From Herbiconiux aconitum (lineage in GTDB: Bacteria > Actinomycetota > Actinomycetes > Actinomycetales > Microbacteriaceae): 64,000 nt of DNA. Below are positions 43,856 to 59,510 of the stretch, one piece after another. The notes below the pieces were generated by a model. That model searched no databases, was not told the origin of the DNA, and worked only from the letters and a program-made list of their open reading frames with translations. Position numbers and translations under genes: made by a program. Location: the NCBI RefSeq assembly GCF_024979235.1, contig NZ_JANLCM010000001.1, forward strand, positions 496,001 to 560,000. The letters run 5' to 3'. The first letter of the stretch is position 1, and each line of letters begins with the position of its first letter.

Positions 43856-44245
43856 ATGGCCATCGTCGCATCCGTTCTCGTCGGCCTCGCGGCCTTGCTG
43901 CACGTCTACATCTGGTACATGGAGAGCGTGCGCTGGCGCACCCCCGTCATCTGGAAGCGCTTCGGCCTCGCCAGCCAGGCGGATGCCGACGCCACCGCGC
44001 CGCTCGCCTACAACCAGGGCTTCTACAACCTGTTCCTGGCAGTCGGTGCGGCCCTCGGCGTCATCCTCTACTGGACGGATGCCCGCGAGGCCGGCTTCGC
44101 TCTCGCCGTGTTCTCCGCGGGAAGCATGTTCGCGGCCTCCGTCGTGCTCCTCAGCACCGGTCGCGCCCGCCTCCAGGCGGCGGCAACCCAGGGCACCCTC
44201 CCCCTGCTGGGTGTGATCTTCTTCTTACTCGCCCTGGCGTTCTAG
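43856..44245 (+). CDS. DUF1304 membrane protein
   Basis: 129 residues with four membrane helices. The family signature is clear: HVYIWYMESVRW in helix 1 and YNQGFYNLFLAVGA at helix 2, with TQGTLPLLGVIFF at the end. Function unknown; small integral membrane proteins of this family are widespread. Starts 71 bp from the divergent epimerase start. A set of competing hairpins follows the stop. Confidence 0.9.
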   Translation: MAIVASVLVGLAALLHVYIWYMESVRWRTPVIWKRFGLASQADADATAPLAYNQGFYNLFLAVGAALGVILYWTDAREAGFALAVFSAGSMFAASVVLLSTGRARLQAAATQGTLPLLGVIFFLLALAF

Positions 44246-44255
44246 TTGCCCCTGC

Positions 44256-44334
44256 CGAAACGACGGAGGATTCACCGGCAAACGGGCTGACCCTCCGTCA
44301 TTCCCGTTCCACCCCGCAAAAGTCCGTCGTTCCG
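44256..44334 (+). other. Three-arm region able to form two alternative hairpins
   Basis: Segment a (44256-44269, centred on ACGACGGAGG) can pair with CCTCCGTC at 44292-44299 over eight bases, or with TCCGTCGTTCCG at 44323-44334 over 11 of 12 bases. The pairings exclude each other. It lies just after the DUF1304 stop and before the 141-bp repeat. A plain terminator with a decayed duplicate is the simplest reading. Confidence 0.45.
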
Positions 44335-44354
44335 ACGAACAAAGACCCGGCACC

Positions 44355-44495
44355 GCACGCAACAGGCCCTTATCGACGACCCAAGGTGAGCGCGAGGCCG
44401 CGTCAGCGACCTCACGCGAACATGTCGCGGAGCGCCGGGCAAGGACCGGCGCGACCCGAGTAGGCCGCGCGAAGCACGGCCTACTCGGCAGCTAG
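44355..44495 (-). repeat. Structured ~141-bp repeat, copy A (3' end of the RND pump gene)
   Basis: Aligns by eye with 58863-59004 along its whole length, roughly five positions in six identical. It folds into three stem-loops: GCGAGG/CCTCACGC (about 44391-44418), GCGCCGG/CCGGCGC (44432-44452), and a 12-base perfect stem CCGAGTAGGCCG/CGGCCTACTCGG around the loop CGCGAAGCA (44457-44489). The last 15 bases lie inside the RND gene and code for its final residues and stop. Orientation is given as that of the adjacent gene. Confidence 0.85.
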
Positions 44496-47400
44496 CACAG
44501 TCAACGAAGCCGCCGCAACTTCCTGCGCCCGCGCCTCGCGCCGCTCCCGCCGCCGCTCCCGCGACCCCTCCACGAGGTTGTAGAGCACCGGCAGCACGAT
44601 CAGGGTGAGCAGCGTCGACGACACCAGGCCGCCGATGACGATGATCGCGAGCGGCTGTGAGATGAACCCGCCGTGCCCGGTGAGTCCGACCGCCATCGGC
44701 AGCAACGCGAAGATCGTGGCCAGCGCGGTCATGAGGATGGGCCGCAGACGACGCGAAGCACCCTCCACGAGCGCCTCCCGCACGGGCAGACCTCGAGCCC
44801 GGTATTGGTTCACGAGGTCGACGAGCACGATCGCGTTCGTCACCACGATGCCGATGAGCATCAGCACTCCGATGATCGACGGAACGCCGAGAGGGATGCC
44901 CGAGATGACCTGCAGCGCGATGGCGCCGGTGGCCGCGAACGGGATGGAGACGAGCAGCAGGACGGGCTGCAGCAGGCTCTTGAAGGTGGCCACCATGACG
45001 ACGTAGACGATCAGGATGGCGACCAGCAGCGCGATGCCGAGCTGCGAGAACGCATCCGACTGGTCGGTGACGACACCGCCGACGCTCGCGGTGGCGCCCG
45101 CCGGGAGCGAGACCGTGTCGAGCGCCTTCGTGACCTCGGCGCTGGCGGTGCCGAGGTCTTCGCTGTTGGGCGTGACCGACACGGTCGCGGTGCGCACGCC
45201 CTTGACGGTCGTGATGGTCGCCGGGCCGTCGACGATCGACACCGTCGCGAGCGAGTCGAGCCGCACCGGGCCGAGAGCGGTCGGGATCTGCAGAGCGGCC
45301 AGCTGGTCTTGAGTGGTGGGCGGGTCGTCGGCGACGATGAAGATCGTGTAGTTCTTGTCGTCGATCACGATCGAGCCGACGGTGGTGGGCTGCATGGTCT
45401 GCGAGACGATGCTGCCGACCGCCACCTCGTTGAGCCCGGCCAGGGCGGCCTTGTCGCGGTCGACCGCGACCTGGATGAAGGGCCTCGAGGCGCTGAGGTT
45501 CGACGACGCCTGCTTCACCTCGTCGAGCCCCTGCATGCTCGTCAGCACCGCAGCGGCCGCCGTGGCGAGATCGCTCTGGGTGGGCGCGGTGACGTCGATC
45601 GCGATGTCGGAGGTGCCGCCGAAGCCGCCACCCGACGAGACCGAGATCTCACCGGCATCCGGGATCTTCTCGAGGGTGGTGCGCACGGTGTCCTGCAAGG
45701 TGTCTTGATCGACGTCTTCGTCGGTGGTGATGTTGTAGGTGATGGCGCTGTCACCGCCGCCCACGAAGGCATCGCGCAGAGCGCTGCCCGAGGAGCCGAT
45801 GGTGAGCTGCACGGTCTGAATGCCGTCGATGCCTTCGAGCGCGGTCTCGACCTGGGTGGCGGCGGCCGACTGGGCGTCGAGGCTCGAGCCGACCGGCACG
45901 GTCTGCGTGACGGTGAAGGTGTTCTGGCCGCTGGAGCCGAGGAAGTTCGTCTTCATCAGCAGCGTCAGGGGCACGGTGCCCACCAGCACGAGGATGGCGA
46001 TGATGATGGTGACGACGGAGTGCTTCAACGTCCAGGAGATGATCGGCAGGTAGCGGCGCTGGAGGGCAGTGGGCGGCTCGTCTTCGATCTCGACGCGATG
46101 GTTGCGGGCGCGGCGGCTGGGCGCTTCGAGGGCCGAGCCGGGCTCGGCGACGGCCGCGTGCGCGTGCGCGTGCTCCTGGGAGCGGGCATCCGTCGATGTC
46201 GTCGCCGCGGCATCCGTGGCCGTAGCAGCGGCCTTCTTCGCCTTCGGGGGCCGCACGAACCAGTACGCGAGCACCGGCACGATGGTGAGAGCGACCAGCA
46301 GCGACGCGAGCAGCGCGATGGTGACAGTGAGCGCGAACGGCCGGAACAGCTCACCGGTGGTGTCTCCCACGAAGGCGAGCGGCAGGAAGACGGCCACCGT
46401 GGTGATGGTGGAGGCTGTGATGGCGCCGGCGACCTCGCGCACGGCGTCGACGATGAGCGAGGCCCGGGCGACGCCCGCCTCCTTCGGCGAGAGCTGCACG
46501 CCGGCGAGCGCCGACAGGTGTCTCTTGATGTTCTCGATCACGACGATGGAGTCGTCGACCACTCGCCCGATCGCGATGGTGAGCGCGCCGAGGGTGATGA
46601 TGTTGAGGGTGTAGTTGGCGGTCTGCAAGCCGATGAAGGTGATGAGCACCGAGGTCGGGATGGAGATGGCGGTGACGATCGTCGATCGGATCGACAACAG
46701 GAACACGAAGACGACGAGCACCGCGAAGAACAGACCGAGCAGGCCCTCGGTGGCGAGCGATTCGATGGACTCCTGGATGAACGGGGCCTGGTCGAAGACG
46801 ACGGTGAAGGTGGCCCCGGGGATGGCGCTCTCGAGCTGAGGCAGCAGATCGCGCACTCCCTGCGACACCTCGACGGTGTTCGCGGAGGGGAGTTTCGTGA
46901 TCGACAGGGTGAGCGCATCCTTGCCGTTGACGCGCGAGATGGAGGTCACCGGGTCGTCGACGAGGGCGACGGATGCGACCTGTCCGATGGTCACAGGCGT
47001 GCCTTCCGCGGTGACCGCGGGAAGCGGAAGGGAGGCGATGTCGTCGGTGGAGGTGAGCTTCGATCCGGCCTGCACGGCGTAGCTCTGGCCGTCTTGCGTG
47101 AGGGTTCCGGCGGGAATCAGCTGGCCGTTCGCGGCGATCGCGTCAGTGATGTCCTTCGTGGTGACGCCTGCGATGGCGAGCGATGCGGGTGAGGGCGTGA
47201 TGGTGACCCGTTGGCCGATGGCCCCGAGAACCTCGGCGGCGCGCACCCCGCTGAGCTCTTCGAGATCGGGCACGGCCGAGGTCTCGAGCTGCTGCGCGAG
47301 GGTCTTGGTGTCTTCGCCGGAGACGGCGATCGAGATGATCGGCAGGTCGTTGATGCTGCCGGAGAGCACCTGCGGATCGAGGTTCTCGGGCAGCGTCGAC

Positions 47401-47750
47401 TTGATGCGGTTGACCGCCTGCTGGATCTTCTGCTCGGCGGTGGCGAGGTTCGTGCCGTAGGTGAAGGTGGCCGAGATGATGGAGAGGTTCGTGCTGCTCG
47501 TCGCACTCGTGGTCTCGATGCCTTCGACGCCCTGGATCGCGCTCTCGATCGGTGTCGAGACGTCGTCGTTCACCACCTCGGGGCTGGCCCCCGGGTAGGT
47601 GGTGAGCACGGCGAGCTGCGGGAACTCGATCGAGGGGATCAGCTCCTGCTTGAGGTTCGTGAGGGCGAGCCCACCGAACACGGCGACCACGATCGTGACG
47701 AGGGCGATCAGGGCCCGGTTCTTCATGCTGAGAACGGCAAGGAAATGCAC
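44481..47750 (-). CDS. RND efflux pump, HAE1/AcrB-like
   Basis: 1089 residues, full length for the HAE1 family. It begins MHFLAVLSMKNRALIAL and has twelve predicted helices and two large outer loops. The helix-4 proton-relay pair is in GRVVDDSIVVIENIKRHL, the fourth-segment signature GASPEVVND-type near residue 55 is present, and GVLMLIGIVVTNAIVLVDLVNQYR is the matching second half. In Gram-positive bacteria these pumps act without an outer-membrane channel; a substrate is not predictable. An Ala/Thr-rich loop of ~60 residues links the halves. It appears monocistronic. The C-terminal codons are supplied by the 141-bp repeat. Confidence 0.92.
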   Translation of the reverse strand: MHFLAVLSMKNRALIALVTIVVAVFGGLALTNLKQELIPSIEFPQLAVLTTYPGASPEVVNDDVSTPIESAIQGVEGIETTSATSSTNLSIISATFTYGTNLATAEQKIQQAVNRIKSTLPENLDPQVLSGSINDLPIISIAVSGEDTKTLAQQLETSAVPDLEELSGVRAAEVLGAIGQRVTITPSPASLAIAGVTTKDITDAIAANGQLIPAGTLTQDGQSYAVQAGSKLTSTDDIASLPLPAVTAEGTPVTIGQVASVALVDDPVTSISRVNGKDALTLSITKLPSANTVEVSQGVRDLLPQLESAIPGATFTVVFDQAPFIQESIESLATEGLLGLFFAVLVVFVFLLSIRSTIVTAISIPTSVLITFIGLQTANYTLNIITLGALTIAIGRVVDDSIVVIENIKRHLSALAGVQLSPKEAGVARASLIVDAVREVAGAITASTITTVAVFLPLAFVGDTTGELFRPFALTVTIALLASLLVALTIVPVLAYWFVRPPKAKKAAATATDAAATTSTDARSQEHAHAHAAVAEPGSALEAPSRRARNHRVEIEDEPPTALQRRYLPIISWTLKHSVVTIIIAILVLVGTVPLTLLMKTNFLGSSGQNTFTVTQTVPVGSSLDAQSAAATQVETALEGIDGIQTVQLTIGSSGSALRDAFVGGGDSAITYNITTDEDVDQDTLQDTVRTTLEKIPDAGEISVSSGGGFGGTSDIAIDVTAPTQSDLATAAAAVLTSMQGLDEVKQASSNLSASRPFIQVAVDRDKAALAGLNEVAVGSIVSQTMQPTTVGSIVIDDKNYTIFIVADDPPTTQDQLAALQIPTALGPVRLDSLATVSIVDGPATITTVKGVRTATVSVTPNSEDLGTASAEVTKALDTVSLPAGATASVGGVVTDQSDAFSQLGIALLVAILIVYVVMVATFKSLLQPVLLLVSIPFAATGAIALQVISGIPLGVPSIIGVLMLIGIVVTNAIVLVDLVNQYRARGLPVREALVEGASRRLRPILMTALATIFALLPMAVGLTGHGGFISQPLAIIVIGGLVSSTLLTLIVLPVLYNLVEGSRERRRERREARAQEVAAASLTVLAAE

Positions 47751-57658: not shown

Positions 57659-58831
57659 ATGGTTGCGAGCAAGTCGAGATGGGGTGTTTTCGTGTTCACC
57701 AGGAAATCGCGTGTGCAAAAAACGGAGAGCGAAGCACTCCAGGCGGGGTCTGATCTGGAGGTCTCCGGCCAGGAGACCGTTCCGTCGGTGCGGGTGAACG
57801 CGTTCCGCATCGGCCTGGTCGGCGGGCTCGGCGTTCTGCTCGCCATCCTGATCGGCGGGGTCGTCACCCAGTTGAGCACGGTGCTCATCTACATCGGCGT
57901 CGCCATCTTCCTGGCGCTCGGTCTCGACCCGCTGGTTTCCTGGCTCGAGAAGAAGATGGCGCGGCCGCTCGCGATCGTGATCGTCTTCGCCGTGGTCATC
58001 CTGATCTTCGGTGGGTTGCTGTTCGCCGTCATCCCGCTGATCGTCGACCAGGCCTCGAACTTCATCGACCAGTTCCCGCAGATCGTGAAGGACTTCACCT
58101 CGAGCGACTTCGTGAAGGGTCTGCAATCGCAGATCGGCGGATTCATCGACATCGACAAGGCCGTTCAGGATGCGACGGCCTTCTTCCAAGACCCGAACAA
58201 CCTGCTGAACATCGGCGGCGGTCTGCTCGCCGTGGGCACGGGCATCGCGAGCGGGGCCACCGGCGCCGTGATCGTGCTGATCCTCACCCTCTACTTCCTC
58301 GCCTCGCTCCGCAGCATGAAGCGCGTCACCTACCGCTTCGTTCCGGCCAACAAGCGAGCAGCCTTCGCTTCGCTCACCGACGACGTCACCGGGGCGGTCG
58401 GCCGCTACGTGGTGGGACAGATCGGGCTCGCCGCCATCAACGGCATCCTGAGCCTCATCTTCCTGACGATCATCGGGGCGCCGCTGCCGGCGCTCTTCGC
58501 CTTCATCGCGTTCCTGGCCTCACTCATCCCGCTCGTCGGAACGTTGAGCGGCGCGATCATCATCACCCTGGTCTGCCTGTTCGCCTCGCCGCTCACGGCT
58601 CTGGCCGCCGCGATCTACTACCTCATCTACATGCAGGTGGAGGCCTACTTCTTGAGCCCGCGCATCATGAACCGCGCGGTGGCGGTGCCCGGCTCGATCG
58701 TGGTGATCGCGGCGGTGGCCGGCGGCACGCTCGGCTCGGTGCTCGGGGCGCTCGTCGCCATCCCGATCGCTGCGTCGGCGATCATCATCGTGCAGAAGGT
58801 GGTCTTCCCGAAGCAGGACGCAAAAGTGTGA
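57659..58831 (+). CDS. AI-2E family permease
   Basis: 390 residues, about eight helices arranged as in the AI-2E (UPF0118/TqsA/PerM) family: two or three N-terminal helices, a long amphipathic loop (FIDQFPQIVKDF), then the conserved AFIAFLASLIPLVGTLSG and YYLIYMQVEAYFLSPRIMNRAVAVPG blocks. Members are proposed exporters of small signals or sodium/lithium antiporters; the function here is open. The ATG at 57659 has no ribosome site; the in-frame GTG at 57692 is an alternative. Confidence 0.87.
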   Translation: MVASKSRWGVFVFTRKSRVQKTESEALQAGSDLEVSGQETVPSVRVNAFRIGLVGGLGVLLAILIGGVVTQLSTVLIYIGVAIFLALGLDPLVSWLEKKMARPLAIVIVFAVVILIFGGLLFAVIPLIVDQASNFIDQFPQIVKDFTSSDFVKGLQSQIGGFIDIDKAVQDATAFFQDPNNLLNIGGGLLAVGTGIASGATGAVIVLILTLYFLASLRSMKRVTYRFVPANKRAAFASLTDDVTGAVGRYVVGQIGLAAINGILSLIFLTIIGAPLPALFAFIAFLASLIPLVGTLSGAIIITLVCLFASPLTALAAAIYYLIYMQVEAYFLSPRIMNRAVAVPGSIVVIAAVAGGTLGSVLGALVAIPIAASAIIIVQKVVFPKQDAKV

Positions 58832-58862
58832 AGGTCTGGCCAATGACATCGGGTAAGAGATC

Positions 58863-59004
58863 GCACGCAACAGGCCGCTCCCGAACGACCCAGAGTGAGC
58901 GCGCGGCCGCGTCAGCGACCGCACGCGAACATGTCGCGCGGCGCCGGGCAGGGACCGGCGACGCCCGAGGACGCCGCGCGAAGCACGGCGCCCGAGGCAG
59001 CTAG
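58863..59004 (-). repeat. Structured ~141-bp repeat, copy B (3' end of the thioesterase gene)
   Basis: Second copy of the element at 44355-44495. Fixed blocks shared by both include GCACGCAACAGGCC, GCGTCAGCGACC, ACGCGAACATGTCGCG, CGCGAAGCACGGC and GGCAGCTAG. Its stems differ in sequence but keep pairing at several positions: GCGG/CCGC replaces GAGG/CCTC in hairpin 1, and in hairpin 3 two pairs are exchanged (G-C to C-G, T-A to G-C), although three other pairs are lost. The terminal CTAG supplies the stop codon of the thioesterase gene. Confidence 0.85.
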
Positions 59005-59510
59005 AAGGGGAATATTAGGAGGGAGCTTGTGGCCGTGGCCACCAAAGCTCCCTTGCCGTCGGTCAGCTCCGCCTCGGCGAACGCGACGCGGCGACCGGGT
59101 TTCACGACGCGGCCGACGCAGCGGAGCGTTCCGCTGTCGCGGCTGATCGGGCGCAAGAAGTTCACCTTCAACTCGATCGAGGTGTAGCCGACTCCCGCGG
59201 GCAGTGTGGACTGCACCGCACAGCCGAGGGCCGAGTCGAGCAGGGTGCTGATGAGGCCCCCGTGCACGATGCCGAGCGGGTTGTAGTGGTATTCACCCGG
59301 TTCGCAGGTGAAGGTCGCCGTGCCTTCGCCGACCTCGGCGAGCGTCATGCCGACGAGCTTGCCGATCGGCGGCGGGGGAAGCTCACCGCCCACCATCGCG
59401 CGAAGAAAGTCGATGCCCGCCATTCCGGGCGCGGCGTCGACGTTCTGTTGCGGGTCGTCCCATTCCACGACCCGTCGGCGGCCGGCTGCGCTGTCGTCGT
59501 TCCCTGGCAT
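59001..59510 (-). CDS. Hotdog-fold acyl-CoA thioesterase (PaaI-like)
   Basis: 169 residues from the ATG at 59510; the frame runs on into the next gene but there only as shadow. Single hotdog domain: NPLGIVHGGLISTLLDSALGCAV with the HGG(L/M) motif and the acidic residue on the central helix, then VGYTSIELKVNFLRPI and the final strands. Such enzymes hydrolyse acyl- or aryl-CoA. The last codon and stop are at the edge of the 141-bp repeat. Confidence 0.9.
   Translation of the reverse strand: MPGNDDSAAGRRRVVEWDDPQQNVDAAPGMAGIDFLRAMVGGELPPPPIGKLVGMTLAEVGEGTATFTCEPGEYHYNPLGIVHGGLISTLLDSALGCAVQSTLPAGVGYTSIELKVNFLRPISRDSGTLRCVGRVVKPGRRVAFAEAELTDGKGALVATATSSLLIFPF

Follow-up and report, generated by a model that had tools for sequence, protein, structure and literature searches.

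The stretch of DNA analysed, here called the window, comprises 64,000 nucleotides of the Herbiconiux aconitum genome and carries two full-length class 1 copies of a structured repeat on the minus strand, copy A at 44353..44497 and copy B at 58861..59006. The claim that the two are alike over their whole length was borne out by an end-to-end alignment and by a single covariance model, R1, built from 35 copies (alignment A2), which fits both over positions 1-145 with 156.8 bits for A and 143.0 bits for B. Copy A is flanked by a leftward gene at 44481..47750 (minus strand), presumably for a long membrane transporter of the RND/MMPL-like kind, with orthologues in 16/16 Herbiconiux genomes, and by a convergent gene at 43856..44245 (plus strand); between the latter and copy A lies a companion repeat, GAAACGACGGAG, at 44257..44268 (plus strand). 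Copy B is flanked by a leftward gene at 59001..59468 (minus strand), which we take to be thioesterase-like and which has a relative in 12/16 Herbiconiux genomes, and by a convergent gene at 57713..58831 (plus strand), gene calls here and below being those of a home-made finder based on codon usage. The original prediction placed both copies at the 3' end of a leftward gene in the same orientation. The stop codons do lie inside the elements, that of the transporter gene, at 44481, within hairpin 3 of copy A, and the TAG of the thioesterase-like gene being supplied by the CTAG at the outer end of copy B, but the shared orientation is partly automatic because in convergent regions both neighbouring genes end there.

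Three hairpins had been proposed for each copy and all are present, together with a fourth, short one and a closing stem that is weak. In copy A, on the minus strand, hairpin 3 with a variable stem and the loop TTC spans 44456..44488 (R1 positions 10-42), hairpin 2 with the arms CGCCGG / CCGGCG spans 44429..44455 (positions 43-69), hairpin 1 with 12 pairs and the loop TGAC spans 44390..44417 (positions 81-108) and a tail hairpin of 4 pairs spans 44364..44382 (positions 116-134). The same model positions of copy B, again on the minus strand, place hairpin 3 at 58965..58997, hairpin 2 at 58938..58964, hairpin 1 at 58899..58926 and the tail hairpin, with one inserted base, at 58872..58891. The difference between the copies in hairpin 1, GAGG/CCTC against GCGG/CCGC, is indeed a compensating change, and copy B, for which a loss of pairs in hairpin 3 had been noted, does have an internal mismatch there. 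For both copies the minus strand, which is the sense strand of the leftward genes, is the better one, folding against shuffled sequences giving z = -4.7 (minus) and -4.5 (plus) for copy A and z = -2.3 (minus) and -0.46 (plus) for copy B. Copy B alone is thus only modestly above chance and its support comes from the family. No T-tract terminator was found at copy A by pattern. A search of the window against Rfam returned no family over threshold except tRNA, with no score near gathering at copy A, in agreement with the earlier statement that no named element could be recognised.

Where two copies had been noted, searches of the genome and of its relatives revealed many, with homologues in other species. 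Within H. aconitum copy A gave 44 matches by blastn and model R1 gave 93 at E<=0.1, 91 of them at E<=1e-6, which excludes chance. Contig C3 of this genome (65,861 bases) holds four copies and is denser in them than the rest. Among 60 genomes searched with stricter filters, matches were found in 15/16 from Herbiconiux and in 0/44 from 42 other genera, and the number of copies per genome within Herbiconiux ranged from 0 to at least 53. A survey of 396 genomes of the order, in which 8 candidates per genome were scored, matched H. aconitum alone. Scanning of 84,980 species genomes with an exact core pattern yielded 58 stretches, of which 57 fit the model; 56 of these are in records that bear the name Herbiconiux or Microbacteriaceae, and the remaining one carries a Corynebacterium-like label, but its position and score coincide with those of Herbiconiux genome G007. 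A stretch from Photorhabdus (L074) had no model match and was taken as chance. It must be borne in mind that foreign loci chosen by an exact core pattern are biased toward conserved copies; the 58 named loci contained 76 model matches, of which 73 were used after removal of two L080 fragments and a weak L115 match. No match was found in plasmids, phages or viral contigs, and a plasmid, phage or viral origin was rejected on that basis. No description of the family was found in the literature, the available text of the Herbiconiux pangenome paper (PMC10011130) having no passage on it. The element is a genus-specific dispersed extragenic palindromic repeat family in Herbiconiux.

The unit is ~145 nt long and consists of three hairpins and a short tail hairpin, which on the folding strand follow the order outer end CTGWGYTRGYTGCC, hairpin 3, hairpin 2, GCGACATGTT, hairpin 1, TCACCCTGGGTCGTCGA and tail hairpin. 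The outer end reads YTRG-YTGCC, the stem of hairpin 3 is very variable and the linker GCGACATGTT is near-fixed. A second class of copy is without the hairpin-3 end, has other outer hairpins and often terminates in GGTACC. In 12/142 copies (e.g. L136:5681-5847, L119:3001-3166) an extra hairpin stands in place of the hairpin 1 loop; its stem is variable and its tip, GGCCTGCGGTC, near-constant. The tail of some variants, at C1:601405 (L036) and C2:1439363/1439570 (L037) of H. aconitum, is a bidirectional A-tract/T-tract hairpin, AAAAAGGCCCGCAGC ... GCTGCGGGCCTTTTT, that resembles an intrinsic terminator. Elements occur singly or as inverted, converging pairs, of which there are 16, most with spacers of 127-139 nt. 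Many of these spacers carry inverted GAAACGACGGAG repeats (e.g. L009, L011, L017, L026), and the motif, found exactly in 32/259 loci, some of them overlapping, could represent either a binding site or another repeat family. Ten composites at different sites are 82-95% identical over 420 nt.

The position of the family relative to genes was tabulated for 91 of the 93 copies in H. aconitum, two on C3 being missing from the table. Convergent genes flank 58 of them, 16 lie in sense and 14 in antisense between co-directional genes, 2 are divergent and 1 is inside an ORF; the other 90 are outside predicted ORFs, some overlapping ORF ends. Counted by site, 46/74 are convergent as against 135/794 gene junctions in G002. 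A same-sense gene lies upstream of 31/39 full-length copies and its stop falls within -20..+20 nt of the element start in 29/31, inside the element in 16 of these, the element frequently providing the stop codon of its neighbour. Sense orientation is automatic in convergent regions, but the anchoring of the hairpin-3 end at stop codons is not, and the proposal that the position after stop codons is fixed rather than random with respect to genes was upheld. Only at convergent sites does the folding strand correspond to the sense strand of the upstream gene; in co-directional pairs, with 16 sense and 14 antisense copies, there is no constant sense orientation to the transcript, which argues against a purely sense-RNA role. 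Three antisense or divergent copies, at C1:2222417 (L032), C2:454561 (L031) and C2:946316 (L038), lie 3-6 nt from a predicted gene start, and their outer end resembles an outward-facing promoter -10 box.

Comparisons across the genus showed that species often have sites in common, but that the copies in a common site are rarely best matches. Both flanking genes were predicted for 64 of the 73 foreign copies used, and 26 of these 64 occupy the same site as a copy in H. aconitum, which was the best match within that genome in 2/26 cases. Direct comparison with G002 gave a same-site best match in 3/9, two of the nine orthologue pairs having been allocated to arms by guesswork. Where two elements form a pair in one site, they inevitably score one 'same' and one 'flip' in orientation; among 14 unpaired foreign copies facing a single H. 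aconitum copy, 8 have the same orientation and 6 are flipped. Site A, downstream of the transporter gene, holds an element in 3/11 readable genomes, the eight others being judged empty by eye and the remaining 5 of the 16 orthologues not being found by script. G002 has a copy at 9/14 comparable sites, nine tiles having been picked mainly around known copies; restricted to tiles selected for reasons other than the presence of a copy, the figure is 3/5. Where an orthologous site in G002 lacks the element it carries other intergenic DNA, and no clean empty site was obtained.

Locus L089 (H. oxytropis) and locus L075 (MAG nzgw90) share near-identical flanks, spacer and right arm at one site, whereas the hairpins of the left arm have been replaced by new matching stems; the stem arm TCAGGC of L075 is complementary to GCCTGA at the end of the neighbouring gene. 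At C1:1832922 of H. aconitum a 113-bp core is 94.7% identical to that of G002 and is inverted relative to the flanking genes (L134, C1:1832800-1833260, against G002 C2:202981-203420), with L109 agreeing with the orientation in G002. The three genomes G001, G009 and G013, with 0, 1 and 1 copies, form one well-supported clade that is apparently nested (84/97) in a midpoint-rooted, one-gene tree of 15 genomes. The single copy in G013 lies at a site where other species carry one too, which favours loss.

Covarying stems with near-fixed loops were a central part of the original prediction and were confirmed in the family as a whole. A model-fitted alignment of 142 copies has double-sided changes in 28/40 pairs (644 cells), far over both shuffled controls, which ignore the relatedness of copies (19.4 pairs, 199 cells), and slid controls (at most 18 pairs and at most 140 cells). 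A MAFFT alignment of 35 copies, not fitted to the model, gave 16 pairs and 78 double-change cells against 6.2 pairs and 22 cells when shuffled and at most 6 pairs and 6 cells when slid. The excess of G-U cells (623) over A-C cells (51) points to one folding strand; the model was built on that strand, but A-C cells would nonetheless occupy the same columns as G-U. G-U pairs in hairpin 1 are fixed at the same places in 139/140 and 127/140 cells, and loops of three or four bases are of the form T..C in 124/126 cases in hairpin 1 and 84/98 in hairpin 3. Read on the other strand these loops are C-GNA-G or C-GNNA-G, so that the loop pattern does not fix which strand matters in them.

Perfect complementarity holds between the outer triplets of hairpin 1 in 131/140 copies, with five different triplets represented, and in the 12 pairs that have both G-C and C-G the minority type accounts for 347 cells as against 13 GG/CC intermediates. 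Stem changes are thus block-like and almost without intermediates. Covariation alone is no proof of RNA function here because template switching or conversion can partly explain matched stems, a template-switching mechanism of this kind being described in the available part of PMC8794818. The wobble pairs that persist and the loop ends that stay fixed suggest that a strand-specific constraint is at work as well. None of the outcomes named beforehand as refuting came about, the copies being many, the covariation well over its controls and the positions non-random. As for the interpretation as a folded RNA, the conserved fold with its covariation stood, but with the stems changing in blocks the RNA role itself is a possibility.

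Among known systems the closest include the ERIC or IRU elements of enterobacteria, of about 127 bp, and similar MITE-like repeats between genes. The Herbiconiux family is like them in length class, in being intergenic and palindromic with a conserved fold and in lacking coding capacity, but differs in sequence and phylum, in having three separate hairpins where ERIC has one long one, and in its ~420 nt inverted composites and stems renewed in blocks. Structured ncRNAs in Rfam have similar covarying stems and conserved loops, but no family there matches the element. The kind is a known one: REPs, ERIC and other extragenic palindromic repeats occur as inverted dimers and near ORF ends (as described in parts of PMC3733652 and PMC2267715). 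REP/REPIN sequences of the GTAG and CGTC super-families often lie <20 bp from ORF 3' ends, and the CGTC REPs are without a known transposase, according to the available text of PMC3733652, whose main text, to that extent, does not mention Actinobacteria. Judged against that account, the Herbiconiux elements share inverted dimers, convergent and unidirectional intergenic placement and variable stems with REP/REPIN, but the unit is four to seven times longer and has no terminal GTAG tag and no RAYT. CGTC REPs have a terminal CGTC and a stem of 8-9 bp in the same account. For the Herbiconiux elements, too, no known transposase was found, but their CGTC-like letters are confined to the tail and the unit is of another size.

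Several candidate mobilisers were sought. No Y1 transposase (PF01797) was detected in H. aconitum or in any of the 15 copy-bearing Herbiconiux genomes. The sole one of the genus, at G001:C11:24558-24878, is in a genome without any copy. A TnpB guide RNA, as a remnant of IS200/IS605, was rejected on finding PF07282 in 0/16 genomes and PF01797 in 1/16, the copy-free G001. Retro-mobility was likewise discarded, with reverse transcriptase in 3/16 genomes and none in H. aconitum, as was an autonomous version between nearby copies, the predicted proteins in four copy clusters looking by eye like ordinary cellular ones. No terminal inverted repeats or target-site duplications, such as a MITE of a known IS would carry, were recognised by eye in the flanks or in five sites aligned to G002.

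These observations bear on several explanations. A family of chromosomal protein-binding sites selected as DNA, putatively bound by gyrase or a nucleoid protein or serving as a recombination site, could account for the in-place inversion and for the other-strand loops C-GNA-G or C-GNNA-G of most copies, a loop shape that is unusually stable in single-stranded DNA, but a copy number of 0 to at least 53 in one genus and the near-total loss in one clade speak against an essential chromosomal role and make this improbable. A functional 3'-end RNA element under selection (terminator, insulator or exonuclease block between convergent genes), its copies homogenised by gene conversion, is rather unlikely. 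It would fit the stop-anchoring of 29/31 full-length copies, the 46/74 convergent sites, the excess of G-U over A-C on the strand that is gene-sense at convergent sites and the classic bidirectional T/A-tract hairpin of some variants, but not the 14 antisense against 16 sense copies in co-directional pairs, the near absence of the family from one clade with many sites empty in relatives, or the lack of a T-tract at copy A. A RAYT-mobilised REPIN population would be in keeping with the inverted dimers, the location between convergent genes and the short distance to ORF ends, all of them features of the REPs described in the accessible text of PMC3733652. It is very improbable, however, since Y1_Tnp was found in 0/15 copy-bearing genomes with its sole match in the copy-free G001, there is no GTAG tag, and the ~145 nt unit with three hairpins is not one of 20-40 bp; in the form that requires a resident RAYT it is refuted, as no Y1 transposase is present where copies exist.

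A less remote alternative, combinable with any origin of the repeat and possible though not the likelier course, is that mutation accounts for most of the covariation, with DNA stems kept perfect by template switching or quasi-palindrome correction and without selection on RNA. The block changes nearly without intermediates, the mechanism as set out in part of PMC8794818 and the whole-stem replacement between sister genomes all favour it, as does the match of TCAGGC in L075 to the gene end GCCTGA, but this match covers six bases in a single copy and may be fortuitous. Perfect copying would, moreover, repair the fixed G-U pairs of hairpin 1 to Watson-Crick pairs, and the loop ends are fixed, with T..C in 124/126 three- or four-base loops of hairpin 1. 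On balance the elements are probably a REP/ERIC-like extragenic palindromic family and, most likely, mobile DNA of a non-autonomous type, which would form a structure at 3' ends. Such a family would be spread by an enzyme acting in trans, its hairpin tips being kept while whole blocks of stem are renewed by template switching during replication, by gene conversion from copy to copy, or by both; once transcribed from the adjacent gene, the element would give the transcript a stable 3' end, curbing read-through and attack by exonucleases. A bolder version, which is unlikely as it stands, would have protein-free mobile DNA defined by its hairpin tips and not by its ends, with stems rewritten blockwise by template switching, ectopic conversion and perhaps copying of the neighbouring gene as tips and wobbles persist, and with an enzyme that lets it enter anew, or flip, at stop codons in the gap between convergent genes.

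The family has all but disappeared from one clade, so that a search for genes that went missing together with it could point to its mobiliser. Covariation is ordinarily taken as proof that an RNA is functional, and here textbook covariation arises in blocks nearly without intermediates. With dozens of copies per genome and close species for comparison, Herbiconiux offers a test bed in which template switching or conversion can be set against stepwise compensation as the means by which stems are maintained.
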